Shown: piece after piece, positions 1,898 through 24,043 of the stretch
Layout: each line of letters starts with the position of its first letter
Numbering within the stretch: the first letter of the stretch is position 1
Source of the DNA: Candidatus Tectimicrobiota bacterium
GTDB lineage: Bacteria > UBA8248 > JACPRG01
Length of the DNA stretch: 30,618 bases
NCBI GenBank assembly: GCA_016190025.1
Contig: JACPRG010000006.1
Location: forward strand, 1 to 30,618
Direction of reading: 5' to 3'
Translations under genes and position numbers: made by a program
The notes under the pieces: model-generated
The model's input: the letters and a program-made list of their open reading frames with translations, nothing else
The model's database searches: none
What the model was told of the DNA's origin: nothing

Positions 1898-2083
1898 AAC
1901 TTGATTTTTGATGACTCAAAACCGCTGGTGTGCGTCGGCTGAAAGGACTCGAGAGAGCAAGCGGATATTCCGCCGGATTTCGAACGAAGGGGGCGGCTTG
2001 AGGCCGTGGCTCTCCCTTCCGTCCTCGAGAAAACGGACGGCCCTCCCGGGCCTCGCTGGGGCGACTTCGGGGGTGTTTGTGCG

Positions 2084-3118
2084 ATGATCGAACCGATCCG
2101 GGCCCTGTGGATCGTAGGGACCCTTGCGTTGGCCGCCGCGTTTCTGTTCTGGCCGGTGCGGGGGCTTTTCTGGCGGTGGTCGCGAGCCTTTCGGGCGACC
2201 GACCGGGTCCTGATCGAAGACGCCCTGAAGCACCTTTATGACTGCGAATACCGCCAGATCCCCTGCACGCTGTACAGCCTCTCCGGCGCACTGCGGATCT
2301 CCGCCAACCGGGCCGCCCGGCTCCTGGCGCGCTTGGCGGAACTGGAGCTGGTGACCTTGGCGGAGCGGGGATACGGGTTGACGCCGGATGGGCGGAGCTA
2401 CGCCCTCCGGGTCATTCGCATCCACCGCCTGTGGGAACGCTACCTCTCGGACGAGACCAGCCTCGACGCCGCCCGGTGGCACCGCGAGGCGGAGCGTCGG
2501 GAGCACCGGATCTCGCCCGAGGAGGCCGACATGCTCGCGGCCCAGATGGGCCACCCGCGCTTCGACCCCCACGGCGATCCCATTCCCACGGCCCCCGGCG
2601 ACCTCCCTCCTCGCAAGGGACGGCCGCTGACCGCCCTGGCCGTCGGTGAGCTGGGGGCGATCGTTCACGTGGAGGACGAGCCCCAGGTGGTTCACGAACA
2701 GCTCATTGCCGAGAACCTGCACCCGGGCATGCGCGTGCGGGTGGTGGAGAGCGGCCCGAACCGGATCCGTTTCGAGGCCGACGCCGAGGAGCACGTCCTG
2801 GCCCCGGTTGTGGCCACGAACGTGTCGGTGATCCCCCTGCCCCGCGAGCGGGAGATGCCTGGGCCGTTCGAGCGGCTGTCGGGCCTCGCGCTGGGAGACA
2901 AGGCCGAGGTCATCGGCATCTCTCCGACCTGCCGCGGCACCGAGCGGCGCCGGCTGCTGGACCTGGGGGTTATTCCCGGTACGGTTGTCGAGGCCGAGCT
3001 GGAGAACCCCCACCGCGACCCGGTCGCCTACCGCATCCGCGGCGCCCTCATCGCCCTGCGCCGGGAGCAGGCCGACCTGATCCACGTCCGCCGCCTCAAC
3101 AACGGAGCGTCTCCATGA
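2084..3118 (+). CDS. Membrane-anchored DtxR-FeoA fusion regulator, coupled to FeoB
   Basis: A 344-residue protein with a single transmembrane helix (about 5-25), a DtxR-type winged helix (about 42-105), a DtxR dimerisation and metal domain (about 108-165) and two FeoA/SH3-like domains (about 180-255 and 262-337). The metal-site pattern of the neighbouring repressor is kept: H114, E137, E140 and H141, plus [12 protein letters not shown]. The last domain reads like a free-standing FeoA (LDLGVIPGT). The start is taken as ATG 2084; an in-frame GTG at 2006 would add 26 unlikely residues, and the Shine-Dalgarno is weak. The stop overlaps the feoB start by 4 bases (ATGA), so the two are translationally coupled. 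I infer that it supplies FeoA function to FeoB and senses metal at the membrane. Whether it still binds DNA is unknown. Confidence 0.85.
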
Positions 3119-5373
3119 GCCCAGCCGCCTGCACGTCCTGCGCCGCCTGCCCGGCCCACAACCTGGCGCACCTCGTCAACCTCGGCGTCGAAATGGAGAA
3201 CTGGGACTACGTGGTGGCCCTGGCCGGCAACCCCAACACGGGCAAGAGCACGGTGTTTAACGCCCTGACCGGCCTCCGGCAGCACACCGGGAACTGGCCC
3301 GGCAAGACGGTGACCCGCGCGGAGGGCGGCTTCTCCTACGCCGGAAAGGCCTACAAGCTGGTGGACCTGCCCGGCACGTACTCGCTGCTGTCGGCCAGCT
3401 ACGACGAGGAGATCGCCCGCGACTTCCTCCTGTTCGGCCAGCCGGACGTGACCGTCATCGTCGTCGACGCCAACCGACTCGAGCGCAACCTCAACCTGGC
3501 CCTCCAGGTGCTGGAGATCACCGACCGGGTGGTCATCTGCCTGAACCTGATGGACGAGGCCCGGCGGCACGGCCTGACGGTGGACGACCGCCGCTTGGCG
3601 CGGGACCTGGGCGTGCCCGTCGTGCCCGCGGCCGCCCGCTACGGCGAGGGGCTCGACCGGCTCCGCCAGGCCATCGCCGAGGTGGCGACGGGGCAGGTGG
3701 TCTGCAAGCCGCGCCGGGTGGGAGGCCAATCGCCGGCCCTGAAGGACGCCGTCGGCCACCTCGCGCGCCGGGTGGAACGGGCCTTCCCGGGCCTCCCCAA
3801 CGCCCAGTGGCTTGCCCTCCGCCTCCTGGACGGCGACGAGCGGATCGGACAGGCGGTCCGGGCGGGCGAGCTGGGAGCCCTCCAGCGGCGGGACCCTCCG
3901 CCGGCGGGCGGAGGCGCCGGAGAGGGGGCGCCGAGGGAGCCGCCCTCCGCCGCGGGCGCCGACCTCCTCGCCGAGGCCTCGGCCCTGCGCTGGCAGGTCG
4001 GCCCCGACTTCCACCAGGCGCTCATGGAGACCGTGTACACCGAGGCCGCGCGCCTCGCCGACCGGGCGGTGCGCCGCAGCGGGGAGCGGCCGCGGTTCGA
4101 CCTGGACCGGACGCTCGACCGGATCGTCACCAGCCGCAGGTTCGGGTTCCCGCTCATGTTCCTCCTCCTGGCGGTGGTGTTCTGGATCACCATCGTCGGG
4201 TCCAACCATCCCTCGCAGATGCTCGCCTGGCTGCTGCTGGACACCCTCCACCCGGTGCTCAAGAGCGGGGCGGTGGCCCTGGGCGTCCCCTGGTGGCTCG
4301 GCGGGGTGCTGATCGACGGCATGTACCTGAGCACGGCCTGGGTGGTGAGCGTCATGTTGCCGCCTATGGCCATCTTCTTCCCCCTGTTCACGCTTCTGGA
4401 GGACTTCGGCTACCTGCCCCGCGTGGCTTTCAACCTGGACCACCTCTTCAAGCGGGTGGGCGCCCACGGCAAGCAGGCCCTGACCATGTCCATGGGCTTC
4501 GGGTGCAACGCCGCCGGGGTCATCGCCACGCGCATCATCGAAAGCCCCCGGGAGCGGCTGATCGCCATCCTCACGAACAACTTCGCCCTGTGCAACGGGC
4601 GCTGGCCGACGCAGATCCTCATCGCCTCCATCTTCATCGGGGCGCTGGCGCCGGCCCATCTGGCCGGGCTGATCTCCGCCGCGGCCGTGGTGGGGGTGGC
4701 CGTGCTGGGCGTCCTGCTCACGTTCGTCAGCTCCTGGCTGCTCTCCCGCACGCTCCTGCGCGGAGAGGTCTCTACCTTTAGCCTGGAGCTCCCCCCCTAC
4801 CGGCCGCCGCGCCTGCTCCAGACGCTGTGCACCTCCCTCATCGACCGCACGATCCTCGTCCTGTGGAGGGCCGTGGTCTTCGCCCTTCCGGCCGGGGCGG
4901 TCATCTGGCTCATCTCGAATATCCAGGTCGGCGGCGCCTCCCTGGCGCAGTACGTCATCGCCTGGCTCCAGCCCTTCGGCGCCGCGATCGGCCTCAGCGG
5001 GGTCATCCTCCTGGCGTACGTCGTGGCCATCCCGGCCAATGAGATCGTCATCCCGACGGTGCTGATGCTGACCGTCCTGACGGCCGGCGTGACCGGCGTG
5101 GGCCAGGGGGCCGGCGTGATGTTCGAGCTGAAGAGCCAAGCGGCGACGGCCCAGGTCCTGCAAGCCGGCGGCTGGACGCTGCTCACGGCCGTCAGCCTGA
5201 TGCTTTTCAGCCTCGTGCACAATCCGTGCTCGACCACCCTGTACACCATCTGGAAGGAGACGCAGAGCCGGAAGTGGACGGCCGTCTCCGCCCTGATGCC
5301 TCTGGCGATGGGGTTCCTGCTCACCTTCCTGGTGGCCCAGGCGTGGCGGGTGCTCGCCGGGGCCGCCCTGTGA
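3115..5373 (+). CDS. feoB: Ferrous iron transporter FeoB
   Basis: A 752-residue inner-membrane ferrous iron transporter. The N-terminal G domain shows G1 GNPNTGKST (38-46), switch motif GNWPGKTV (59-66), G3 DLPGTYS (84-90), G4 NLMDE (144-148) and a helical NFeoB tail. About eight transmembrane segments follow from residue 340, with two Gate-type regions and the conserved GFGCNAAGV and NPCSTTLYT stretches. Length is normal for the family. Before the G domain there is a short Cys cluster, C6-x2-C9-x2-C12-P, not part of the usual core. A Pro/Gly/Glu-rich low-complexity linker (about 258-285) joins the soluble and membrane parts. It overlaps the DtxR-FeoA gene by 4 bases. No separate feoA or feoC is present here. 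Confidence 0.97.
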
Positions 5374-8520: not shown

Positions 8521-9183
8521 GTGCTCGCCAAAGACGGGAAGCCGGAAAAGTCGGTGCACTGGGTCTCGAAGGTCTTCGCCACTTTTCTCCGAACCCTCGG
8601 ACGCTTCCAGCATCCCTCCGTTCTCGACCTCGGGCCCGTGACGGGCGGCAACATCTCCTTTTACGGGGAAATGGGCTGGAAGATCTACGCCAACGACATC
8701 CTCCAGGAGTACCGGGAGGCGGTCGAGGCGGCCCGGGCCTCGCCGCCGCAGGCGGCGGAGGAACAGGAATCCCCGCCGGACCCCATCGAAACCGTCTTGA
8801 GCCGGTTCCACTATGCGCCGGGTTCCCTCCAGGGAATCCTGTGCTGGGATGTCCTGGACAGGCTCCCTCCCATTTGGACCCGCGAGCTGGTGCACCGCCT
8901 TTCAACGGCCTTGGACGAGGGGGGCGTGATTCTCTCGTTTTTCGGGGTGAAAGAGGAGCTGGGCGACGGTGAGTCTCCCCGGGGGTTCCGGATCCGGAGC
9001 GAGACCGACCTGGAGCCCATTCCGGAAGAAGGGACGGCGCTGGAGCGGTACACCTATCAGAACGGCGAGATCATGAGTCTTTTCTCTGGATTCAAGGTGC
9101 TGAATTTCTACTTTATGAAGAACAATTTCCGTGAACTTCTCGTCCAGAAGCAGACCCGGGCCGCCTTGAGCGCTCCCGCCTGA
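8521..9183 (+). CDS. Divergent class I methyltransferase-like protein
   Basis: 220 residues from the first canonical start in frame (GTG 8521); the real protein probably begins near 8400 after a frame correction. The fold signs are those of a class I SAM methyltransferase: a motif-I-like strand and loop VLDLGPVTGGN (about 35-45), an acidic residue after the next strand (YANDIL, about 57-62), a motif-IV-like region ILCWDVLDRLPP, and a post-motif strand GGVILSFF. Motif I is not canonical, and the C-terminal half (RFRIRSETDLEPIPEEG onward) is not recognisable. It may bind SAM weakly or not at all. It follows the bactofilin by 213 bases and converges on the octaheme cytochrome gene; the 83-base gap holds only a small GGGCG/CGCCC hairpin. 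Confidence 0.65.
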   Translation: MLAKDGKPEKSVHWVSKVFATFLRTLGRFQHPSVLDLGPVTGGNISFYGEMGWKIYANDILQEYREAVEAARASPPQAAEEQESPPDPIETVLSRFHYAPGSLQGILCWDVLDRLPPIWTRELVHRLSTALDEGGVILSFFGVKEELGDGESPRGFRIRSETDLEPIPEEGTALERYTYQNGEIMSLFSGFKVLNFYFMKNNFRELLVQKQTRAALSAPA

Positions 9184-9266: not shown

Positions 9267-11897
9267 CTATTCTTTCTTTTTCTTCTCCTCCTTTTTTTCT
9301 TCCTCTTCGGTGATCACGCCCTCGGGGATTCCCTTGGCTTCCCCTTTGCCGCCGTCAAACCGGAGCAGGTAGTCCCGAAGGGCCCGGATCTGTTTTTCCG
9401 CGTTCCCCTTCCACACGGTGGTCAGCGGACTCTCGTCTCCGGAGAAGAAGGTGGGCATCCGGGTCCCTTCCTGGATCTTCTGCGGGTCCTTCAGCCAGCT
9501 CACGATCCAGCCGGGGCGCAGCCGCTCCCGGGCGAGGAAGAGGTCCGGCGCGAGGTCGGCCGCCTCCTTGCCGGTCGCCTGCTGGTGGCATTCCAGGCAT
9601 TGGAAGGTTTGGAAGAGGAATTTGCCGACGGCCACGTTTCCCCGATCGATGGCGCCGTCGTCCACGAAGAGGTACGGGCTTCCCATCTCCTTCTCGACCT
9701 GGGCGCTGAAATAGCTCACCAGGGCGGCCGCCTCCTCGTCCGTGAGCCCGAAGGTCGGCATGCGGACCGCCAGCCAGGGACGCAGCGGGACGGGTCGCTT
9801 CAGGAAGCCGAAGAGCCACCCGGGCTGAACCTTGGCCCCCTCTCCGGCGAGGACCGGCGGGGCGAGGGAGGGGTCCTTGTAGAATGGACGGATGTCCCCG
9901 CCCTTTCCTTCGATGACGTGGCATCCCGCGCAGTTGTACTTTTCGACCAGGCGGCGGCCGCGCTCGAGGGCGGCCTCCCGGGGCGAGAGCTTCCGCACGA
10001 ATTCCCCGGCCATCTCATGGCCGTCCGCCCTTTGCAGGAAGGTCATCAGGGCCTTCACCTCTTCGTCGGTGAGATAGAAATTCGGCATCCGCAGGCTGAT
10101 CCGGTCGGTGCTGAAGATCCGCGGGTTTTTCAGCTTGGCGAAAAGCCATGCGTCCCACGTCTCGGGGATCTGGGTGACGTCGCCGAAGTCGAGCTCGGCG
10201 GGTTTCTTGTTGGCGAAGGTTGTGAGCTCGACGCTCAGCCGGCCGATCTTCTCCGTCCCCTGGATGTTGTGGCACCCGTAGCAGCCGTAGTTTTCCACCA
10301 GGCGGCGGCCCTCCTGGATCGCCGCGGGGTCCTTCAACTGGGCGATGATCTCGGGGCGGGCCGGCGCGGGCTTCCCCCGGGAGAGGAGGTAAGCGGCCAG
10401 GTCCTGGGCCTCGGCGTCTGAAAGCCGGAGATCGGGCATGGCGGTCCCGGGGTCGTAGCGCTTGGGGTCCTTCACCCAGTTGACCACCCAGTCGGCGTTC
10501 ACCTTGGCGCCGACGCGGCCCAAGTCGGGGCCGAAGGCGCCCCCCTTGCCGTCGATGGCGTGGCACGCCAGGCAGCCGCGGGACTCGAAAAGCGTCTTGC
10601 CGCGCCTGGCCGCCGCTTCCGCGTCGGGGCCGGGGTTGTATTTGAGGGGCCCCGAGGGCGGGACGCCTTCCGAGGCCTTCAGCAGATAAGCCGTCAGGGC
10701 CGTGGCCTGCTCCCGGGTGAAGCTGAAGAAGGGCATCCGCGTGGCGGGCAGGTGTTCCCGCGGATTCAAGACCCAAGAGACCATCCACCCCGGGTTGAAC
10801 TTCTGGGACGCCTTCAGGAGCGAGGGTCCGACCTTGGGCAGGTCTTCGTAGCCCTGCATCAGGTGGCAGCCGGAGCACCCCAGCTCTGTGAACAGGCGTC
10901 TTCCCTTGGACACCACCGAGGCCATGGGAACGTCGAGGGTCGCGGCGTGGCACCGCAGGCAGTTCGTCTGCGCGGATTCGCCCCGGAGCAGCGGCTTTTC
11001 CCAGAATTCAAGGTGCTCTCCTGTCTTGAGGTCCAGGCCGTGGGCCTTGGTGAGGCTGTTCAGCGCCTGGCCCTGCCCTCCGTGACAAAGGCTGCAGCCG
11101 AACTTCTCCACCGGGTGCTTGCGCAGCAGGACGTCGCGCTTCGGATGGGTCCGGAAGGGGGGCGGGAAATCTTCAAACCCGGGGCGATCGGCCGCCAGAT
11201 GGCAGGTCTGGCACCGATCCACGGTGAGGACGGCTTGACCGAAGTTGTTGAACTCGACGCCTTCGATCACCACCTGCTGGATGGCCGGAACCCGGCGCTC
11301 GATGGAGGCCAGCCGTCTTTCCAGGCCGCCCAGGTCGCGGCCCGTCTGGGTCTTCTTCTCCTCCAGCTGCTTGAGGGACCTCCCCAGTCTCTCGATCTCC
11401 TGGCGGGCGGCCTTCTCTTGCTCCGTCAGGTCGGCCTCGGCTTTTCCAAGCCTGACGGTCGATGCCTCCAGCCGCTCGTAGCGGGCCTTTTCGGCGGTGG
11501 CCGGGCGGCCGTTCTGGAGGGCGTGCTTGTACTCGTAATAGGCCTCGTCCATCTCGCTGCGGGCGAACTTGTTCTCCAGGGAGGCCTTGTCCAGCCTGTC
11601 TTGAATGTCGGCCAGGCGTCTTTGGGCGGCGGCGTAGGGTTCGCTTGCGGCGGTCTCCCGGCGGGCCTTCTCGATGGCGGCGTTCAGCCTCGCCAGCTCG
11701 TCCGAGACCTTCTTGCGCTCGGCCGCAATCTCCTTGCGCACCCTTTGCGCTTCCAGGCGGTCAAACTCCCGCTGGTAGTCTTTCCAAGGCCGCCGGCCCT
11801 CGATCTCGTCCCAGACGACCCAGGCGATGCTGGCCAGCAGGAGCATGCTCACGACAAAGAAAAAGCGCGCCTTGGAGGATTGCTCTACGGGAGGCAT
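9267..11897 (-). CDS. Octaheme c-type cytochrome with N-terminal coiled coil, partner of a b6f-type complex
   Basis: An 876-residue membrane-anchored, periplasm-facing cytochrome. It has one N-terminal transmembrane helix (about 11-29), a long charged coiled coil (about 38-205) and eight CxxCH heme sites at C229, C268, C313, C341, C442, C539, C656 and C767. The first three lie in a compact multiheme segment. Each of the last five starts a repeated mono-heme module ending in a W-x3-W-x2-NP/DP and MP-x-F/L pattern, whose Met is the probable distal ligand. The C-terminus is a Lys/Glu-rich tail (EEEEKKEEKKKKE). It is last in a minus-strand operon after Rieske, cytochrome b6 and subunit IV genes, 36 bases behind subunit IV. 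It is most likely the electron acceptor replacing cytochrome f or c1, and I found no other cytochrome c here. Confidence 0.92.
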   Translation of the reverse strand: MPPVEQSSKARFFFVVSMLLLASIAWVVWDEIEGRRPWKDYQREFDRLEAQRVRKEIAAERKKVSDELARLNAAIEKARRETAASEPYAAAQRRLADIQDRLDKASLENKFARSEMDEAYYEYKHALQNGRPATAEKARYERLEASTVRLGKAEADLTEQEKAARQEIERLGRSLKQLEEKKTQTGRDLGGLERRLASIERRVPAIQQVVIEGVEFNNFGQAVLTVDRCQTCHLAADRPGFEDFPPPFRTHPKRDVLLRKHPVEKFGCSLCHGGQGQALNSLTKAHGLDLKTGEHLEFWEKPLLRGESAQTNCLRCHAATLDVPMASVVSKGRRLFTELGCSGCHLMQGYEDLPKVGPSLLKASQKFNPGWMVSWVLNPREHLPATRMPFFSFTREQATALTAYLLKASEGVPPSGPLKYNPGPDAEAAARRGKTLFESRGCLACHAIDGKGGAFGPDLGRVGAKVNADWVVNWVKDPKRYDPGTAMPDLRLSDAEAQDLAAYLLSRGKPAPARPEIIAQLKDPAAIQEGRRLVENYGCYGCHNIQGTEKIGRLSVELTTFANKKPAELDFGDVTQIPETWDAWLFAKLKNPRIFSTDRISLRMPNFYLTDEEVKALMTFLQRADGHEMAGEFVRKLSPREAALERGRRLVEKYNCAGCHVIEGKGGDIRPFYKDPSLAPPVLAGEGAKVQPGWLFGFLKRPVPLRPWLAVRMPTFGLTDEEAAALVSYFSAQVEKEMGSPYLFVDDGAIDRGNVAVGKFLFQTFQCLECHQQATGKEAADLAPDLFLARERLRPGWIVSWLKDPQKIQEGTRMPTFFSGDESPLTTVWKGNAEKQIRALRDYLLRFDGGKGEAKGIPEGVITEEEEKKEEKKKKE

Positions 11898-11933: not shown

Positions 11934-12824
11934 TCAGATGTTAAACCAAGGGGTGATCCACACGTACTTGATGTTGAAAGCGATCCGGAGAACCATCTTG
12001 ATGGGCAAGGCCATCATCGTCAGAAACAGGGAGGCCTTGATGGCGTAGCGGACCGCGCCCACCTTTTCGTAGCCGCCGGTCTTCCGCCGATAAAAGTACC
12101 AGAGAACGCCCAGGAGATAATAGGCGGTCACGAGAACCGCCCCCGTGTGGAAGGCCGGGGACGTCAGGAAGGCGCTGGGATCCGCGGCCGGCTCGCTCTT
12201 GAAGCCGAACAGCTTGAAGGGCAGATCCACGTTGGTCAGGGCGACCACCTTGTGGGGGTCCCACTTCTGCCCCGGCAGGAAGAAGTTCCAACCCGGACCC
12301 CGGAGGAAGACCCCGTTGATGATGAGGGCGATCCACAGAACGCCGAACCCGAACAGGAAGAGAGTGACGGCCACCCGCCGCTCCCGGAAGGTGTAGTACC
12401 CGTTCCCCTTGGGATTGATGTCGATGTAGGGGATGAGCATCAGCCCCACGATGATCAGGGTGGGCAGGACCACCCCGGCGATCCAGGGGTCGAAGTACAC
12501 CAACATCTCCTGGAGCCCCAGGAAGTACCAGGGCGCCTTGGAGGGGTTGGGCGTCAGGGACGGGTTGGCCGGCTCCTCCAGGGGCGCGTCCACCAGCACC
12601 GACCAGACGGTGAGCAGCACCATGACGCACAGGGCGCACAGGAACTCGCTCCGCACCAGGTACGGCCACACGTGGACCTTGTCCGCCTCTTTCGCGCGCT
12701 TGGCCAGCTTGACGTCGCCCACGGTCCGGGCGGCCGGCGTCCCTTCCGGGGCGGCCTTCGGGGCCGGAGGGGCGAGATGCGCCTTCTCCTCAGGACTTGG
12801 GGTTGCCTTCTTCGCCTTCGCCAT
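11934..12824 (-). CDS. Cytochrome b C-terminal subunit (PetD/subunit IV-like) with two extra membrane helices
   Basis: A 296-residue membrane protein of the Qo half of a bc/b6f complex. An Ala/Pro/Lys-rich cytoplasmic N-tail (1-50) precedes helices at about 55-78, 112-133 and 149-173, which correspond to subunit IV. Two further helices at about 226-245 and 259-282 follow and are not in plant or cyanobacterial PetD. At the quinol-oxidation site the PEWY motif is replaced by APWY (97-100), so the catalytic Glu is missing at the usual position; YFLGLQE follows. GAGGTGAGG upstream supports ATG 12824. It lies 83 bases after cytochrome b6 and 36 before the octaheme cytochrome. It would form the membrane core with cytochrome b6. 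Confidence 0.88.
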   Translation of the reverse strand: MAKAKKATPSPEEKAHLAPPAPKAAPEGTPAARTVGDVKLAKRAKEADKVHVWPYLVRSEFLCALCVMVLLTVWSVLVDAPLEEPANPSLTPNPSKAPWYFLGLQEMLVYFDPWIAGVVLPTLIIVGLMLIPYIDINPKGNGYYTFRERRVAVTLFLFGFGVLWIALIINGVFLRGPGWNFFLPGQKWDPHKVVALTNVDLPFKLFGFKSEPAADPSAFLTSPAFHTGAVLVTAYYLLGVLWYFYRRKTGGYEKVGAVRYAIKASLFLTMMALPIKMVLRIAFNIKYVWITPWFNI

Positions 12825-12907: not shown

Positions 12908-13687
12908 TCACAGCGGACCGGAGACCCCCCCGTCTTTCCGGATGCGCCAGAAATGCACGATCATCAAAAGGCTCGCCGCGATGGGAAGCACGATGCAGTG
13001 CAGGACGTAAAACCGCAGCAGGGCGGGGGGGCCTACCAGCGTCCCGCCGAGCAAGATCGAGCGGGCGTCGTAGCGCGGCGTGACCCCCACGACCTCGCCG
13101 AGCGGCCCTTCGTGCCCGAGCAGCGGCGTCGCGCGGGCCATGTTCGTCCCGACGGTCACGGCCCAGATGGAAAGCTGGTCCCACGGGAGCAGGTAGCCCG
13201 TAAAGCTCAGCAGCAGCGTGAAGACGAGCAGCAGCACCCCGACCACCCAGTTGAACTCCCGCGGGGGCTTGTAGGAGCCCGTCATGAAGACCCGGAACAT
13301 GTGCAGCCACACGGCGATGACCATCCCGTGGGCCGCCCACCGGTGCATGTTCCGCATGAGCATCCCGAAGGGCGCGTCGAACTCCAGGTATTTGATGTCC
13401 GCGTACGCGTACTCGGCCACGGGCCGGTAATAGAACATCAGAACCACGCCGGTCACCACCGTCACCAGAAACATCAGGAAGGTGATCCCCCCCATGCACC
13501 ACGTGAAGCGCACCCGGAGGGCGTGGCGCCGGATCTTGGCGGGATGCAGGTGGAGCCAGACGTTGTTGGCGACCTGCAGGACGCGGTTTCGCGGGGTGTC
13601 CGCGTACCCGTGCCGGAACATGGATTTCCAGACGTACGATTCGAAGAGCCTCTGGCCGAGTTCGTTGAGGCGTGGCAGTTTGGGCAC
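12908..13687 (-). CDS. Cytochrome b6-type subunit with heme-ci cysteine
   Basis: 259 residues with four transmembrane helices, the length and plan of split cytochrome b6. The two b-heme pairs are H115/H230 and H129/H245; spacing within each helix (14 and 15) is as in b6. C64 in [10 protein letters not shown] aligns with b6 Cys35 (YCLGGIT), the covalent attachment residue of the third heme (ci or x). LPWDQ (167-171) and the C-terminal [10 protein letters not shown] also match b6. The start is GTG 13687 with GAGGA about 10 bases upstream. It sits between the Rieske gene (32-base gap) and the PetD-like gene. It oxidises a quinol, probably menaquinol by lineage, and passes one electron across the membrane. 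The presence of ci is an inference from the Cys. Confidence 0.93.
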
Positions 13688-13719: not shown

Positions 13720-14265
13720 TCAGGAATACTTGAAAAACGCGTCGGGCTGGGTCCACTCCCCCTTTTCCTGCCGGAAGTTTTTCCCCTTGTCCACCACGAG
13801 GGTCCCCTCGTCGTTGAGGACGATCTTGACCCGCTCCAGCGGCCGCGGCGCCGGACCCTCGAAGTTGACCCCGGACCTGCGGAACCCGCTCCCGTGGCAC
13901 GGGCACTTGAACTTGTCCTCCGAGGCCAACCACCGGGGCGTGCAGCCCAGATGCGTGCACACGGCCAACAGGGCGTAAAAGCCCTCTTTCTCCCGCACAA
14001 TCCAGACGCGCTTGGTCTGTTTGAACTTTTCGCTGACCTCTCCGACCACGTAATCCTCGGGCCGGCCGGCCTCAAAGCTCGTGGACGGCTCGAACAGGAC
14101 GCGCGGGAACATGAACCGCAGAGAGCCCAGCGCCCCGATCCCCAGGGAAAGAAAAAACCCTCCCCAGGCGGCCACCGACAGAAAGTGCCTGCGCGCGAAG
14201 GTGTCCCGCTCTCTGCGAAGGCGCGGCTGGCGAGCTTCTTGGATGACTTCCGTCACAACGGCCAA
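13720..14265 (-). CDS. Rieske [2Fe-2S] protein of the b6f-type complex
   Basis: A 181-residue quinol-oxidising Rieske subunit. The N-terminal segment 22-55 has an RR-x-F-L-S twin-arginine-like start (RRHFLSVAAWGG) and one transmembrane anchor. The soluble cluster domain carries CTHLGC (C103, H105, C108) and CPCHGSGF (C121, C123, H124); C103, H105, C121 and H124 are the cluster ligands and C108-C123 the disulfide. GPAPRPL follows, as in the family. The start is given as TTG 14265; a GTG three codons later is equally possible, and neither has a strong ribosome-binding site. It is first in the minus-strand operon. A perfect CRP-type palindrome lies 38 bases upstream of the start, and a consensus sigma-70 promoter about 210 bases upstream. 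Confidence 0.94.
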   Translation of the reverse strand: MAVVTEVIQEARQPRLRRERDTFARRHFLSVAAWGGFFLSLGIGALGSLRFMFPRVLFEPSTSFEAGRPEDYVVGEVSEKFKQTKRVWIVREKEGFYALLAVCTHLGCTPRWLASEDKFKCPCHGSGFRRSGVNFEGPAPRPLERVKIVLNDEGTLVVDKGKNFRQEKGEWTQPDAFFKYS

Positions 14266-14617: not shown

Positions 14618-15229
14618 ATGATATCAGCTCGGCACCGCATAGAAACACCCCTCCCGCCCGAAGGGAAGGCGTCCGCCCGGACGGCGTCCCTTCTCCTCGG
14701 CGTCCTGCTGCTGCTCCCGGCCGGATGCGGCGGCGGCGTCAGGGACGGGCTTCCGCCCCCGCCGGGCGCGCCCCGGCCTTCGGTCTCCTCGCCCGGCGAC
14801 GCGGCGAGGGAAGGTCTCGCCCGAAACGGCCCGGAGACCTCCGCCGGGAAAGACGGGGGCCGGTCCTCCGAAGGGTCCGGCGTTTCCGTCGCCGCGCTGC
14901 GACGGGACCGGGACCGGCTGAGAGAGGAAGTCGAGCGCCTGCGGAGCGAGCGCGCCCGCTGGGACGCCGGGCGTCGGCTGGTGGAGGACCTGCTGGCCAT
15001 CCTGTTCCGGGCCCTGGAGAAGGGCGACTACGACGGGGCGCTGGTCTCCATCGACCAGTTCTTACGGGTCCATCCCGAGCACCCCATGCGCCAGCAGGTC
15101 TCAGAGCTGCGCCCGGCCGTGGAGAAGCTCCGGACCGTGGCTGCCGAGCGGCAAACGCTGCGCGAAGAGATCCAGAAGCTCAAGGACATTCAGCTCCGGT
15201 TTGACGCCCTTCGGAAAGAGCCCCGGTGA
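14618..15229 (+). CDS. GlrY/QseG-like coiled-coil lipoprotein
   Basis: A 203-residue lipoprotein. The hydrophobic signal ends LLPAGC, so the lipidated Cys is C37 (the lipobox is atypical, with Pro at -3). A disordered Gly/Pro/Ser stretch (38-88) leads to two charged coiled-coil helices (about 91-120 and 168-200) around a short helix pair (ALEKGDYDGALVSIDQFL) like one TPR. Its stop overlaps the next gene's GTG by 4 bases, so it is translationally coupled to a sigma-54 response regulator. Lipoprotein plus GlrR-type regulator is the layout of E. coli glrY-glrR (qseG-qseF), where the lipoprotein tunes the kinase; the resemblance in sequence is limited to size, lipid anchor and C-terminal coil. 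ATG 14618 has no good ribosome-binding site, so the start could be later. Confidence 0.7.
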   Translation: MISARHRIETPLPPEGKASARTASLLLGVLLLLPAGCGGGVRDGLPPPPGAPRPSVSSPGDAAREGLARNGPETSAGKDGGRSSEGSGVSVAALRRDRDRLREEVERLRSERARWDAGRRLVEDLLAILFRALEKGDYDGALVSIDQFLRVHPEHPMRQQVSELRPAVEKLRTVAAERQTLREEIQKLKDIQLRFDALRKEPR

Positions 15230-18065: not shown

Positions 18066-19061
18066 TCAGCGCGTCTTGAACAGGACCAGGTGGTCCGTCC
18101 CGGACTCCGGCGCCCAGACCTCCCCCGGCCGCCCCAGGATCTGCCGGACGTTGGCCCCCGTCCGGGGGCTGGGGAAGGCGCGGAAGGTCTCCGTCTCGGG
18201 ATCGAAGCGGACGACGGCGTTCGCGGCGAAGTCGCTCAGCCAGACCTTGTCCTGGTCGTCCACGTAGACGGCGTACGTCCGGGGACGCTCGCCCGGCAGC
18301 CGCCACGTCCGCCACGTTCGGTCCGCCGGGTCGAATCGGCTGACGTTGCCCGAGTTCCACTCGCTCACCCAGATGCGGCCCTTGGAATCCGACCAGACGC
18401 GGCGCGCCCCCTGTTTGGGCGTCGGCGGCTCGATGACCTCCGCCGCCCCGGTCGCCGCGTGGACCCGCGCGATGAAGCTCCCGGCAAGGGAGGCGAAATA
18501 GACGCCGCCCTGCGGCGTTCCCGTGATGCCGTAGGGTCCCCGCCCGCGCGGCGCGTCGTACACCTGAACCGCGCCGGACTTGGGATCGAGACTCCCGTAA
18601 ATCCCGCTCTGGCCCGTGAACCAGAGGACGCCCCGGCCGTCGAAGGCGGCCGTGTTGAGGTTCGCGTAGCCGCGCGGCTCCGGCAGCGGAAAGCGCGTCA
18701 CGGCGAAGGTCTTGGGATCGACCCGGACGATGGCGTTGAGCCCCCCGTCCGTGATCCAAGGCGCCCCGTCCGGGCCGACGATGACGCCGTGGGGCGAGGA
18801 GCCCGCGCCGAGCGGGATGTGTTTCGCCCCGCCCGTCTTCGGGTCAAGCCGGCCGAGGGCGCCCTGATACTGCGCCGTGTACCACACGGGGCCGTCCGGC
18901 GCGGGCGCCACGTCGTGAGGGCGGGCGCCCGGGGGCAGGGGGAACGCCCGGATCGCGACGTCAGCGCGGGCCTCGGCGAAGGCCCACAAGGCCAGCGCCG
19001 CGAGCGCGCAAAGCCCCGCCGCCCCGGCGGGCTTGAAACGGACAAGCTGCTTCCTCCGCAC
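18066..19061 (-). CDS. Secreted Vgb-like seven-repeat beta-propeller protein
   Basis: 331 residues: a signal peptide (about 1-34) followed by seven repeats with a W-x-[ST] strand core and an [IVL]-x-R/S-[LVF]-D-P turn, such as VWYTAQYQGALGRLDP and VWLSDFAANAVVRFDP. This is the virginiamycin B lyase / streptogramin lyase-like propeller, periplasmic or surface-exposed. The start is GTG 19061, chosen because GGAGAGG lies 6 bases upstream; an in-frame start farther up would overlap the pump gene. Most members of this fold are not antibiotic lyases, and I cannot assign the lyase active site with confidence, so a ligand-binding or unknown enzymatic role is more honest. It follows the RND pump gene by 70 bases on the same strand. 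Confidence 0.8.
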   Translation of the reverse strand: MRRKQLVRFKPAGAAGLCALAALALWAFAEARADVAIRAFPLPPGARPHDVAPAPDGPVWYTAQYQGALGRLDPKTGGAKHIPLGAGSSPHGVIVGPDGAPWITDGGLNAIVRVDPKTFAVTRFPLPEPRGYANLNTAAFDGRGVLWFTGQSGIYGSLDPKSGAVQVYDAPRGRGPYGITGTPQGGVYFASLAGSFIARVHAATGAAEVIEPPTPKQGARRVWSDSKGRIWVSEWNSGNVSRFDPADRTWRTWRLPGERPRTYAVYVDDQDKVWLSDFAANAVVRFDPETETFRAFPSPRTGANVRQILGRPGEVWAPESGTDHLVLFKTR

Positions 19062-19131
19062 GCGGAACCTCTCCACAGGAAGTGGGTCTCCCGGCGTCCC
19101 CAAGTCCGAGCAAGGGGGGCCGGTGTCCGGC

Positions 19132-22100
19132 TCAGGTCTTCTCTTGGTCGCGCTCTTCCGCCGCGAGCGGGGCGGGGGCCGGCTGGCCGTTCTCATCCGC
19201 GCCCGCCGCAGGCGAGACGTGCGCCCGGGCCATCGTCCGGCGCTCGGACTCCGGGGCCTTCGCCCCGAACACCAGGCGGCGGAGGGACGTGACGGCGTCG
19301 TCCACCACGGTGTACAGGGTGGGGGTGAGGATCAGCGTGATGAAGGTCGCGAACCCCAGGCCGACGGCCACGACGATCCCGAGCGGCCGCATCATCTCCG
19401 AGCCCTCTCCCATCCCGACGGCGAGGGGCGCGAGGCCGATGATGGTCGTGAAGGAGGTCATGAAGATGGGCCGAAGGCGCAGCGTGCAGGCCTGGACGAC
19501 CGCCTCCGCCCTGGGGACGCCGTGGTCCCGCCGCCGCTGGACGATGTATTCCACGATGAGAATGGCGTTGTTGACCACGATTCCCACCAGCAGGATGACC
19601 CCCAGCAGGACGGTCGCTCCGACGGGGGTGCCCGTGAAGTAAAGCCCGAGGATGCCCCCCATCAGGGCCAGCGGAACGGTCATGATGATCACCAGCGGGT
19701 TGGACAGGGACTCGTACTGGACCGCCATCACCACGAAGACCAGGAAGATGGCCAGGGCGGTCAGGAGGACCAGCGACCGGTTGGTTTCCTTGAGGCTCTC
19801 CTCCTCGCCCCCCGGAACGAAGGCGTATCCCGGGGGGAAGCTGATCCCCTGGGCGGCTTGCTGGATGTCTCTGGCCACTTCGCCGAGGGGCCGCCCCTGG
19901 ACGTCAGCCACGATCTCCAGCATGCGCGCCTGGTCCTCCCGGGTGATGGCCGACGGACCCATCCCGGACCGGACCCTCGCCACGTGACGCAGCGGGATGA
20001 TCTCCCCGCCCCTGGGGAACAGGCTCACGTTTTCCAGGTCGGCCTGGGAACGGACGGAGGCGTCGGCGAAACGGACCCGCACGTCCACCTGCCGGTCCCC
20101 GCGGGTGAGGCGGGTGGCGATCACGCCGTCCACGGCGGAGCGCAGGGTGTTGCCCACCTCCGTCACGGTGAGCCCGAACTGGGCGGCCCGCTCGCGGTCC
20201 ACGTGGACGCGGAACTCGGGGTCTCTGTCGTCCAGGTTGCGGTCGATGTTCACGAGGCCGGGGATGCGGCGCAAGCGCCGGAGCAATTCCTGGCCGACCT
20301 CCTCCAGGACCGTGAGGTCTTCTCCGCGGACCTGGACGCTGATGTCCCGCCTGTGAGTCGTGTTGGAAAAGTGGAGGCCGCGGACCGAGGACTTCTGGAC
20401 GAACATCCGGATGTCCGGGGCGCGCGCCGTGTTCAGCCGCTGGTTCAACTGCTGGACGAACGCCAGCGTCTTGATCCTCGGGTCCACGTCGATATCGACG
20501 CTTCCCATGGTCGGGTCTTCGCGCACCCCCCTGCCGAAAAGACGGCCCCCGGCCACGAGGAAGGTGGATTCAGTCCCCGGCGCCTCCAGGATGAGGCGGT
20601 TCAACCGCCGGACGTATTCGATGTTTTCGGTGAGGGCCCGCCCGGGTGGAAACCGCGCTGTCACGCTGGCCCGGTGGTCGTCCACGGCGGGCAGGAGTTC
20701 GGACCCGAGCCGCATGTAAAGAGGCAGGACCGCCAAGAGAGAAGCCAGAATCACGCCCAGAACGAGGTACCTCGCCCGCAGAACCCTCCCGAGGAACCGG
20801 CCGTAAAAGCGGGTGAAGCCTTCCACCAGCCGCTGGAAGGCCCGGATGAAGAAGAGCCGGCCGACCCCGCTGGTCCGGGGAATGGTGAGAAGCTTCGCCG
20901 AGAAGGTCGCCACGAGGGTCAAGCCCACCAGGAGGGAGATGACCATGGCGAAGGAGATCGTCAGGATCATCTCCTTGAACAGCAGTCCGGAAATCCCGCT
21001 GATGAAGAGAAACGGCACGATGGCCGCCAGGTTGGTGCCCATCGAGGCCCACAGGGCCGATTCCACCTCCCGGCTCGCATCCAGGGCGGCCTCCGTCGCA
21101 TCCTTTTTCTGTTCGGCCCTCCTGCTGATGTGACGGGAGATGTTCTCCAGCATGACGGTGCTGTTGTCCACCAGCATCCCCACGCCGATGGCCAGGGCGC
21201 CCAGGCTGAAGATGTTCAGCGTGAGGCCGAAGAGTTTCATCAGAAAGAACGTCACGACGAGGGCGATCGGGATGGAGAGGCCGATGATGAAGGTCTGGCG
21301 CAGGCTTCCCAGGAAGAGAAGGACGACGAGGGCGGCGAGCCCGCCGCCGATGGCGATGGCGGAGGAGACGGACTGGATGGAGTTCTTGATGAACCAGGAC
21401 TGGTCCTGCATCACCTTGAGGTCGGTGTCGGGCGGGAAAAGGCCCGCCTGGCGGATGGCGTCGACGCGCTTGTGGACGTTGTCCGAGACCTCCACGGTGT
21501 TGGCGTCCGGCTGTTTGAGGACCACGACCTTGATGGCCTCGTCCTGATTCACCCAGGCGAAGATCCGCTGGCGCTCCCCGCCGTCCACCACCCGGGCGAA
21601 GTCCTTCAGGTAGATCTTCCGGCCCTGGGTGTTTTGGAAGATGACCTTTTCCAGGTCGGCCGGCTGGACGAACCGGCCGACCGTCCGGGTCATGAATTCC
21701 TCCCCCCGTCCGATGATCCGGCCGCCGCCGACCTCCTTGTTCTCCTGGTCGAGGCGGCGGATCACGTCGTTGACGGTGAGGCCCAGCTGCTGAAGGCGCG
21801 GAAAGTCCACCACCACCTGCACTTCTTCCTTCTGGCCGCCCAGCACCTCCGCCGAGGCGACCCCCGGGACCATCATCAAGCTGCGCACCAGCGTCTCGTC
21901 GGCCCACGTCCGAAGGGCCGTGCCCGTCAGTGTCTTCGAAGACAGGGAGAATTCCAGAATGGGGAGCTGGGACGGGTCCGCCTTCCAGACGCGCGGCGGG
22001 TCCAGGTCAACCGGGAGGTTCCGCCGGGCCAGGTTCACCTTGGTGATGGTGTCCTGGAGGACCAGGTCGATGTCCCGGCCGTACTCGAAGAAAAGCCAGA

Positions 22101-22371
22101 CGAAGCTCTGGCCCTCGGTCGTGGAGGAGTAAATCTTGCGGATGCCGTCCGTGGTGGCCAGCTCCCGTTCCAGGACCTTGGTCACTTCTTCCTCGATGAC
22201 GTTCGGGTTCACGCCCGGATAGTTGGCGATGACGGCGACGCGCGGATAGATGATGCGCGGCAGAAAATCCACAGGCAGGTTGAATATGGACACCACCCCC
22301 AGGACGACGAGACACAGGGTGATCATCATCGTCCCGATGGGTCTTCGGATGCTGAGGCGGCCGAGCGACAA
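19132..22371 (-). CDS. RND efflux transporter, inner-membrane pump (AcrB/HAE type)
   Basis: A 1079-residue inner-membrane proton-driven exporter. It shows the duplicated RND plan: TM1 (about 10-30), a large periplasmic porter loop starting LPVDFLPRIIYPRV, a TM2-6 block, a second porter loop, and TM8-12. In TM4 the proton-relay pair reads LVDNS, with one Asp followed by Asn, and TM10 reads VVNNAIL, lacking the AcrB Lys; this is a known variant in many non-enterobacterial pumps. The start is TTG 22371 with a purine-rich GAAGGGGG upstream. The adaptor gene ends 24 bases before it. No outer-membrane TolC-like gene is in the window, so the channel must come from elsewhere. Confidence 0.95.
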   Translation of the reverse strand: MSLGRLSIRRPIGTMMITLCLVVLGVVSIFNLPVDFLPRIIYPRVAVIANYPGVNPNVIEEEVTKVLERELATTDGIRKIYSSTTEGQSFVWLFFEYGRDIDLVLQDTITKVNLARRNLPVDLDPPRVWKADPSQLPILEFSLSSKTLTGTALRTWADETLVRSLMMVPGVASAEVLGGQKEEVQVVVDFPRLQQLGLTVNDVIRRLDQENKEVGGGRIIGRGEEFMTRTVGRFVQPADLEKVIFQNTQGRKIYLKDFARVVDGGERQRIFAWVNQDEAIKVVVLKQPDANTVEVSDNVHKRVDAIRQAGLFPPDTDLKVMQDQSWFIKNSIQSVSSAIAIGGGLAALVVLLFLGSLRQTFIIGLSIPIALVVTFFLMKLFGLTLNIFSLGALAIGVGMLVDNSTVMLENISRHISRRAEQKKDATEAALDASREVESALWASMGTNLAAIVPFLFISGISGLLFKEMILTISFAMVISLLVGLTLVATFSAKLLTIPRTSGVGRLFFIRAFQRLVEGFTRFYGRFLGRVLRARYLVLGVILASLLAVLPLYMRLGSELLPAVDDHRASVTARFPPGRALTENIEYVRRLNRLILEAPGTESTFLVAGGRLFGRGVREDPTMGSVDIDVDPRIKTLAFVQQLNQRLNTARAPDIRMFVQKSSVRGLHFSNTTHRRDISVQVRGEDLTVLEEVGQELLRRLRRIPGLVNIDRNLDDRDPEFRVHVDRERAAQFGLTVTEVGNTLRSAVDGVIATRLTRGDRQVDVRVRFADASVRSQADLENVSLFPRGGEIIPLRHVARVRSGMGPSAITREDQARMLEIVADVQGRPLGEVARDIQQAAQGISFPPGYAFVPGGEEESLKETNRSLVLLTALAIFLVFVVMAVQYESLSNPLVIIMTVPLALMGGILGLYFTGTPVGATVLLGVILLVGIVVNNAILIVEYIVQRRRDHGVPRAEAVVQACTLRLRPIFMTSFTTIIGLAPLAVGMGEGSEMMRPLGIVVAVGLGFATFITLILTPTLYTVVDDAVTSLRRLVFGAKAPESERRTMARAHVSPAAGADENGQPAPAPLAAEERDQEKT

Positions 22372-22395: not shown

Positions 22396-24006
22396 TCAGG
22401 GAGCGATCCGCACCGGGCTCCCGGGCCGCAAGAAGCTCTGGCCCTTGACGACGACGCGCTCTCCGGGCGACAGCCCGGAAAGAACCTCCACCCAATCCCC
22501 CTGGCTTTCCCCGATCACGACCTTGCGGGACTCCGCAACGAGTCCTGCGCCGTCGGCCGGTCCGGCCCCCGGCCCTCGGCCCGGCTGCCGATCCGACCGG
22601 TTGTCCGCGGAGGCCTCGATGGAGGCGCCCGAAGGGGTCGGCTTTTTCGGCCGGGCCTTCCCCTGGGTCGTCGCCCCCGCGGTCGGCTTGAAATCCGCTC
22701 TGCCCCCTCCGGCCGGGGCCGTTCCGTCGCGGGAGGCGGCCCGCCCCGGGCCCTTTGAATCCGCTGAATCCGCGCGCGGAGGCGCCTGAGGGGAACCCGG
22801 CTTGGCGACGAAGACCTCGTAGCTCCCGCCCTGGACCTGCCGGACGAGGGCCGCCTTGGGAATCAGGAGGGCCTGGCGGTCCGACTGGGAAGTGAAGGTG
22901 AGGCGCGCCAGCAGGCCCGAGGGGATCTTCCCCCCGGGGTTCTCCAGCTCCACCTCGACGGTGGCCTGCCGGGAAGCAGGGTCGACGGTGGGAAAGACGC
23001 GGTCCACCCGGCCCTCAAAGGTCCGCTGCGGAAGGGCGTCGAAACGGACTTGCAGGGATTGTCCCGCCTTGATCCTCATCAGATCGAGCTCGGAGATCTG
23101 GGTCCGGATGCGCAGGCGCTCGATGCTGACCAAGGTGAGCAGGTGGGTGCCGACGCGGGCCAGGTCCCCCGGCTCGACCCTCCGCTCCGAAACGATCCCC
23201 GAGATGGGGGCCACCACCCTCGTCTCGGCAAGCCTCACCCCCAGCAGGTTGGCGTTCTCTTGGGCCCGGAGAAACTCGCTCCGGGCGGCGGCCACGTCTT
23301 CCCGGCGGGCGCCCGCCTTCATCAGGTCGAGCCTCGCCTGGGCGGCTTGCACCTTGGCCTCGTTTTCGCGGAACTTGGCCTCCATTTCCGCGACGGCCGC
23401 CGTCGCGGACTCGGCCTGAGTCTTGGCGGAGAGGTTCTGCTGGGGGCTGATGATCCCCTGCCGGTGCATCCGGGCGTAGGCGATGGCGTTGCTCTCGGTC
23501 TCGGTCTTCTTGGCCTTGGCGGACTCGAGCTCCGCCTGGGCGCGGGCGAGTGTGGACCGGGCCTCGGCCACCTGCGCGACCGTAGTCGCAATCTCCTCGG
23601 GCCGGTTGCCGGCCAGGAGCTTGTCCAGCCGGGCCTGAGCGCCCTGGGTCTCGGCCTTGGCCAGCTCGTATTGGTGCCGGTTGACGGCGTTGTCCAGCAA
23701 GACGAGAAGCTGGCCCTTTTCAATCCGGTCGCCTTCGCGCACGTTCACCTGAAGGACCTGGGCTTCGGTGCGGGCCGAGAGCTTGACTTCTGTCCGGGGG
23801 CCCGCCGTGCCGGTGGCGACAATGGTGTAAACGAGATGACCCGGCTTGGCGGGAGACACCTTCACGGCGACCGGGCCGCTTTGGGGGCGCCTTCCCCTTT
23901 GCCCGCTCTGCTGGGGGGTTTCGTTTTTGCACGAGGCGATCCCCAAGACCAAGACCAGGGCGAGGAATGACCCGAATTTCGTCAGCAGCGGTTCGCGCAA
24001 ATCCAT
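22396..24006 (-). CDS. RND efflux periplasmic adaptor (membrane fusion protein), lipoprotein with large insert
   Basis: A 536-residue periplasmic adaptor, lipid-anchored (lipobox IASC, Cys at 26). Domains in order are the first lipoyl half (VSARTEAQVLQVNVREGD region), a long alpha-helical hairpin of Ala/Glu/Lys-rich heptads (about 105-260), the second lipoyl half (RVVAPISGIVSERRVEPGD), the beta-barrel (about 295-375) and the membrane-proximal domain. That last domain is interrupted by about 87 residues rich in Pro, Gly, Ala and Ser (about 403-489), and the protein is longer than the usual 350-420. ATG 24006 is preferred to the upstream GTG because the promoter start near 24037 fits it and the signal peptide then begins MDLREPLL. 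It is first in the minus-strand efflux operon. Confidence 0.92.
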   Translation of the reverse strand: MDLREPLLTKFGSFLALVLVLGIASCKNETPQQSGQRGRRPQSGPVAVKVSPAKPGHLVYTIVATGTAGPRTEVKLSARTEAQVLQVNVREGDRIEKGQLLVLLDNAVNRHQYELAKAETQGAQARLDKLLAGNRPEEIATTVAQVAEARSTLARAQAELESAKAKKTETESNAIAYARMHRQGIISPQQNLSAKTQAESATAAVAEMEAKFRENEAKVQAAQARLDLMKAGARREDVAAARSEFLRAQENANLLGVRLAETRVVAPISGIVSERRVEPGDLARVGTHLLTLVSIERLRIRTQISELDLMRIKAGQSLQVRFDALPQRTFEGRVDRVFPTVDPASRQATVEVELENPGGKIPSGLLARLTFTSQSDRQALLIPKAALVRQVQGGSYEVFVAKPGSPQAPPRADSADSKGPGRAASRDGTAPAGGGRADFKPTAGATTQGKARPKKPTPSGASIEASADNRSDRQPGRGPGAGPADGAGLVAESRKVVIGESQGDWVEVLSGLSPGERVVVKGQSFLRPGSPVRIAP

Positions 24007-24043
24007 TCTCGTGGCTTGCCGGCAAAACACGCGGCAATGTGAG

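Follow-up and report, generated by a model that had tools for sequence, protein, structure and literature searches.

A four-gene operon in a genome of Candidatus Tectimicrobiota bacterium ends in the gene for an octaheme cytochrome c, and this operon is an ordinary, well-conserved member of a published, little-studied b6f-like type. It lies in the window, the term used here for the whole stretch of DNA that was analyzed (30,618 nucleotides of contig JACPRG010000006.1). Very probably, the octaheme cytochrome serves this complex as its c-type subunit, in place of cytochrome f or c1. The best explanation as a whole, which we hold with considerable confidence, is a Rieske/cytochrome b complex made by these four genes, with the octaheme subunit as the electron acceptor of the Rieske protein. 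For this explanation, the gene order, motifs, and homology were read from the sequence and the helical hairpin was predicted; the heme ligation, electron path, quinone, dimer, and partner are what we infer. The genes of the operon are:

13720..14265, reverse strand: Rieske protein, 181 residues, with a TTG start as listed (PF00355, 1.6e-09; 9rk3, 7.8e-46)
12908..13687, reverse strand: cytochrome b6, 259 residues (PF00033, 2.5e-43; 1q90_B, 1.3e-47)
11934..12824, reverse strand: subunit-IV-like protein, 296 residues (PF00032, 2.1e-06; b6f subunit IV, 4e-09)
9267..11897, reverse strand: octaheme cytochrome c, 876 residues, last gene of the operon (eight CXXCH motifs and class-I cytochrome c Pfam domains)

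On the reverse strand, the order is Rieske, cytochrome b6, subunit-IV-like protein, and octaheme cytochrome c, with gaps of 32, 83, and 36 bases. In agreement with a previous sequence-only reading, which had assigned the octaheme protein to a b6f-type complex, the Pfam and PDB matches place Rieske, b6, and subunit-IV-type genes directly upstream of it. Based on these matches, cytochrome b is split into separate b6 and subunit-IV-like genes. Of the likely genes on either side (8521-9183 and 14618-15229), one is methyltransferase-like and the other has no Pfam match over the cut-off; both are on the forward strand, and the operon was therefore taken as four genes. Elsewhere in the window, an iron-dependent repressor C-terminal domain is fused to a FeoA domain (2006-3118, forward strand) and overlaps the start of feoB (3115-5373). 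An RND-type efflux pump (19132-22371, reverse strand, PF00873) and an HlyD-like adaptor (22396-24030, reverse strand) are also found, as is a gene at 18066-19196 (reverse strand) that adjoins a Cupin_5 gene and matches the Pfam virginiamycin B lyase family PF24684, taken here as a name only.

The partner proteins were aligned with their relatives, short frames being dropped (71 of 74 b6, 74 of 75 subunit-IV, and 61 of 63 Rieske frames were kept). In b6, the four heme-b His residues (115, 129, 230, and 245) are kept in all 71 relatives. Cys64 aligns with a Cys of 1q90_B that binds heme c_N in b6f. This residue is kept in 62 of the 71 relatives and is Gly in the other nine, so some members of the family may lack the c_N heme. 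Ahead of the first membrane helix lie two further conserved residues, His46 and His48, which are present in 70 of the 71 relatives, the remaining row being gapped. The spacing of His46 to Arg250/Lys251 equals that of His62 to Arg266/Lys267 at the extra interface heme b modeled in Kuenenia (PMC12954380). In the subunit-IV-like protein, KAPWY is observed in place of the PEWY of b6f, each position being kept in 74 of 74 relatives. Hydropathy gives this protein five segments, a rough count, as the same cut-off gives three in b6, where four are expected. The Rieske protein has the motifs CTHLGC and CPCHGSGF, and the final Phe of the latter is kept in 49 of 61 relatives (Tyr in 11, Ile in one). Its closest solved relative is 9rk3 (7.8e-46, versus 1.2e-25 for 9rk4 and 1.1e-15 for the best b6f chain), which is Kustd1480 of Kuenenia (PMC12954380); the Ser and Phe of the Rieske motifs are common to both proteins.

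The combination of an octaheme cytochrome with a b6f-type complex, put forward in the sequence-only reading, has a precedent. A known family of the same order, which that reading named as its refutation, exists in the form of an operon description and an AlphaFold3 model, both published. As described in the 2013 genome paper of Nitrospina gracilis, a Rieske and split b6/subunit IV operon of that organism has an "atypical octaheme cytochrome c" as its sole adjacent putative c subunit, and exactly the same operon structure is present in Kuenenia and Methylomirabilis oxyfera (PMC3578206). A 2025 paper characterizes two Rieske proteins of Kuenenia by crystal structure and potential, with +335 mV for Kustd1480, and describes complexes with a b6-like cytochrome b, a five-helix subunit IV, and a hexa- or octaheme cytochrome c that replaces cytochrome f (PMC12954380). 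In its AlphaFold3 model, the transmembrane helix of the multiheme subunit sits within the complex, and long helices of Kustd1485 wrap the complex and the Rieske protein (PMC12954380). A limited literature search found no report of a purified octaheme-type complex.

From the N-terminus, the octaheme protein comprises the following parts:

11796..11870, reverse strand: N-terminal transmembrane helix, residues 10-34 (hydropathy peak of 2.18 at 10-28; AlphaFold2 helix 10-34)
11514..11786, reverse strand: predicted hairpin helix A, residues 38-128, with a break at 85 (AlphaFold2; pLDDT of 74-89 in ten-residue blocks)
11499..11513, reverse strand: predicted hairpin turn, residues 129-133 (AlphaFold2 loop; the Methylomirabilis homolog has its loop at 142-146)
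11298..11498, reverse strand: predicted hairpin helix B, residues 134-200 (AlphaFold2; periodicity of 3.5)
10947..11213, reverse strand: three-heme His-rich segment, residues 229-317 (motif positions and 43-row alignment)
9363..10922, reverse strand: five class-I mono-heme modules, each CXXCH ... MP, residues 326-845 (Pfam, motifs, and alignment)

The CXXCH motifs start at residues 229, 268, 313, 341, 442, 539, 656, and 767, and each of the last five is followed by an MP pair (388, 487, 604, 713, and 814). In an alignment of 43 proteins (the window protein and 42 homologs), all eight motifs and all five distal Met residues are invariant, which argues that the octaheme pattern is not due to chance. 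The positions and their invariance bear out the proposed arrangement of three clustered hemes followed by five mono-heme modules. In the three-heme segment, His251 and His261 are invariant and His286 is present in 42 of the 43 proteins, making these residues candidate distal heme ligands. SoxX (1h32_B) superposes on residues 412-508 with an rmsd of 2.6 over 95 residues. The membrane anchor proposed to lie ahead of the hemes is also found, as residues 10-28 form the single hydrophobic segment of the protein by hydropathy and fall within the AlphaFold2 helix of residues 10-34.

Between the anchor and the hemes, AlphaFold2 places helices at residues 38-84, 86-128, and 134-200. The AlphaFold2 models are of single chains without hemes or partners, and secondary structure and confidence were read from them. 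The model of the Methylomirabilis homolog likewise shows a helix-turn-helix, with the loop at residues 142-146. In the window protein, the ~160 helical residues are predicted to form an antiparallel helical hairpin, and such a hairpin is predicted for the homolog as well. Periodicity at 3.5 residues was scored against 2000 shuffles for two residue sets, LIVMFYW and LIVMFAYW. For residues 38-84, none is observed (power of 0.00 and 0.06, reached by 98.7% and 69.5% of shuffles), and for residues 86-128, the P value is 0.0185 or 0.0795, depending on the residue set. For residues 134-200, none of the 2000 shuffles attains the observed power with LIVMFYW, and 2.75% do so with LIVMFAYW (P 0.0275, best period 3.60). 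A continuous 170-residue heptad coiled coil was rejected on the lack of 3.5-residue periodicity in residues 38-84, even though residues 134-200 have it. Of the 170-residue coiled coil claimed from the sequence, the long helical region thus stands, whereas its continuity does not: two helices with a turn at residues 129-133 are predicted, and the periodicity depends on the region. A straight spacer stalk was also rejected, as the models of the window protein and of the Methylomirabilis homolog both run helix, turn, helix. A heme wire held away from the membrane on such a stalk is a tempting reading, which the present analysis corrects, since both models fold back and, in the Kuenenia model, the long helices are wrapped around the complex and its Rieske protein (PMC12954380). 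For the suggested role in extracellular electron transfer, no evidence was found.

By analogy with the Kuenenia model, on which this assignment leans, the hairpin probably braces the complex around the Rieske domain. It is instead conceivable, though we judge it unlikely, that the hairpin juts out as a spacer and offers the distal hemes to a partner in the outer membrane or outside the cell; only what the best explanation says of the hairpin would then change, the rest being compatible with this reading. In its favor, helix A (~91 residues) would extend over 130 Å if straight (1.5 Å per residue), and helix B is ~24 residues shorter, so that the heme part could begin some 36 Å from the start of helix A. 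The length of the region is also kept, with 185-218 residues between Arg35 and Cys229 in the 43 rows. However, the chain turns at residues 129-133 and helix B returns for ~67 residues, the Methylomirabilis homolog has the same plan, and in the Kuenenia model the helices wrap the complex (PMC12954380).

Of 7994 candidate proteins scored, 367 relatives of the octaheme protein have E ≤ 0.001. Among the 120 proteins listed, the window protein included, 119 have exactly eight CXXCH motifs and one, named partial, has five. At least 555 GTDB stretches encode a relative, and the best 80 were examined. The octaheme frame has eight CXXCH motifs in 78 of these 80 loci; the other two, with seven and five, are shorter frames. 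Gene order was counted in 66 loci, the other 14 having fewer than 2900 bases upstream. The complete four-gene order is present in 57 of the 66 eligible loci and within 4.5 kb in 56 of them; the compact order is incomplete or absent in the other ten. In L050, the order is complete and stretched, and in L079, the Rieske gene is downstream. Four loci (L013, L032, L045, and L070) have b6 and subunit IV with no Rieske match beside them, whereas L014 and L020 have b6 and subunit IV on the other strand, ~6.5 kb off, and no Rieske gene in the examined stretch. The octaheme genes of L059 and L080 have no b6, subunit IV, or Rieske gene in the examined stretch. The locus titles name Binatota/Binatia, Methylomirabilota/NC10, Nitrospinota, Deltaproteobacteria, Ignavibacteria, Bacteroidota, KSB1, Omnitrophota, Acidobacteria, Poribacteria, and Myxococcales. 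In the phylum of the L014 genome (G005, titled Nitrospinota), all 18 genomes examined match P0001, 11 in one long stretch, G025 in two adjoining stretches, and six in fragments only. This type of complex is common in uncultured groups. One locus with the operon, L010 (b6 identity of 78%), is titled as a Klebsiella pneumoniae metagenome-assembled genome, a title that looks like that of a mislabeled metagenome bin.

The Pfam scan found no cytochrome f among the 26 open reading frames of the window that it covered, and the operon has no gene for cytochrome f or c1. Among 21 octaheme-bearing genomes of unstated completeness, none has a match over the Pfam cut-off for cytochrome f (PF01333) or for cytochrome c1 (PF02167). 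Sub-threshold matches are seen for cytochrome f in five of the 21 (open frames of 1376-1440 residues) and for cytochrome c1 in one (a frame of 342 residues). As controls, PF01333 matched Synechococcus and, unexpectedly and over the cut-off, Thermotoga, and PF02167 matched Caulobacter. The claim that neither protein is present thus holds for the operon, and it may hold for the related genomes, where the matches seen are sub-threshold. Together with the gene order in 56 of 66 loci and the same reading of the N. gracilis operon (PMC3578206), this result supports the octaheme protein as the c-type subunit of a b6f-like complex, as had been proposed.

In another explanation, the octaheme protein stands alone as an electron conduit, periplasmic or outer, that has only the operon in common with the b6-type genes, and some other c-type cytochrome accepts from the Rieske protein. 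The octaheme genes of L059 and L080, with none of the partner genes in the examined stretch, and those of L014 and L020, with b6 and subunit IV distant and on the other strand, would fit such a conduit. We nevertheless find this explanation decidedly improbable given the tight clustering of the four genes in 56 of 66 eligible loci, the N-terminal membrane anchor, and the placement of the multiheme-subunit transmembrane helix within the complex in the Kuenenia model (PMC12954380). The result of 0 of 21 genomes for cytochrome f and c1 points the same way, although other class-I cytochromes could still serve as acceptors.

In the preferred explanation of a Rieske/cytochrome b complex with an octaheme subunit, a quinol, probably menaquinol, would be oxidized at the Qp site of b6 and the subunit-IV-like protein. 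One electron would reach the Qn side by way of the b hemes and the candidate c_N heme, and the second would pass from the Rieske cluster to the octaheme protein, which would do the job of cytochrome f or c1. The N-terminal helix would anchor this protein and the hairpin would brace the complex, probably around the Rieske domain. The three His-rich hemes and the five His/Met modules would accept and buffer electrons and hand them on to partners in the periplasm or to a terminal enzyme. Menaquinone is suggested as the quinone by the KAPWY and Ser/Phe motifs; the Ser/Phe Rieske protein of Kuenenia has a potential of +335 mV (PMC12954380), and thus the potential cannot be read from the motif by itself. 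For Kuenenia Kustd1480-1485, a bifurcating complex has been proposed in which NAD(P)+ is reduced; it shares with the window the closest solved Rieske protein (Kustd1480), the split b6, and, by the rough hydropathy count, a five-segment subunit IV. A complex of this kind is most improbable here, as no NAD(P) oxidoreductase gene adjoins the operon and the neighbors are on the other strand and of no oxidoreductase family.

The window operon ties one more genome to a type of bc complex whose first descriptions came from bacteria of the nitrogen cycle. What makes this type interesting is its as yet unsolved structure, with eight hemes in place of one and a conserved hairpin, rather than the copy in the window. 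A bolder proposal, which we consider rather doubtful, is that in ~10 phylum-level groups a conserved hairpin belt of the octaheme subunit cages the Rieske domain, and its eight-heme store takes over from cytochrome f/c1 and from the mobile cytochrome c alike. If true, this would add a third class of bc complex by architecture, one with a direct connection to its terminal enzyme.

Among known systems, the window operon resembles that of N. gracilis, which has the Rieske protein, the split b6/subunit IV, and an adjacent octaheme cytochrome as the only putative c subunit (PMC3578206). A locus titled Nitrospina sp. (L035) has the same gene order and 37% identity over residues 5-848; no architectural difference was found, and the two differ by sequence divergence. 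The M. oxyfera homolog (P0047) is 38% identical over 96%, with eight CXXCH motifs and the same predicted helix-turn-helix, and differs in a longer stretch between hemes 5 and 6 (442 to 592 versus 442 to 539). Kuenenia Kustd1480-1485 shares the b6-like cytochrome b, a multiheme cytochrome c replacing cytochrome f, long helices, and the closest solved Rieske protein, whereas its complex is described with a putative NAD(P) oxidoreductase (PMC12954380) and none adjoins the window operon. The five helices described for the Kuenenia subunit IV equal the number of segments that the rough hydropathy count gives here. Kustd1485 is likened to the window protein by description, and its larger size and heme groups suggest that it is the octaheme one of Kuenenia. 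The cyanobacterial and chloroplast b6f complexes are alike in the homology of b6 and subunit IV and in the Cys at the c_N position. Unlike these complexes, the window has no cytochrome f in the operon, KAPWY rather than PEWY, and, by the rough hydropathy count, five hydrophobic segments in subunit IV rather than three helices (PMC12954380). The Geobacter-type selenite/tellurite Ext families (NCBIfam) were rejected, as all fall below their cut-offs (ExtP, 274.9 of 290 bits, which is near; ExtQ, 61.2 of 150; ExtS, 80.6 of 100). Finally, QcrC of the actinobacterial bc1 complex is alike in its class-I modules, with PDB matches to 6hwh_M and 8ovc_O and a score of 68.9 bits for NF050122, below the cut-off of 200. 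Weak fold matches are also seen to 7e1v_O and 7q21_C (TMt of 0.43 and 0.40), which we take to be QcrC chains. In the actinobacterial complex, cytochrome b is unsplit, and QcrC has two hemes, in contrast to the eight of the window protein.
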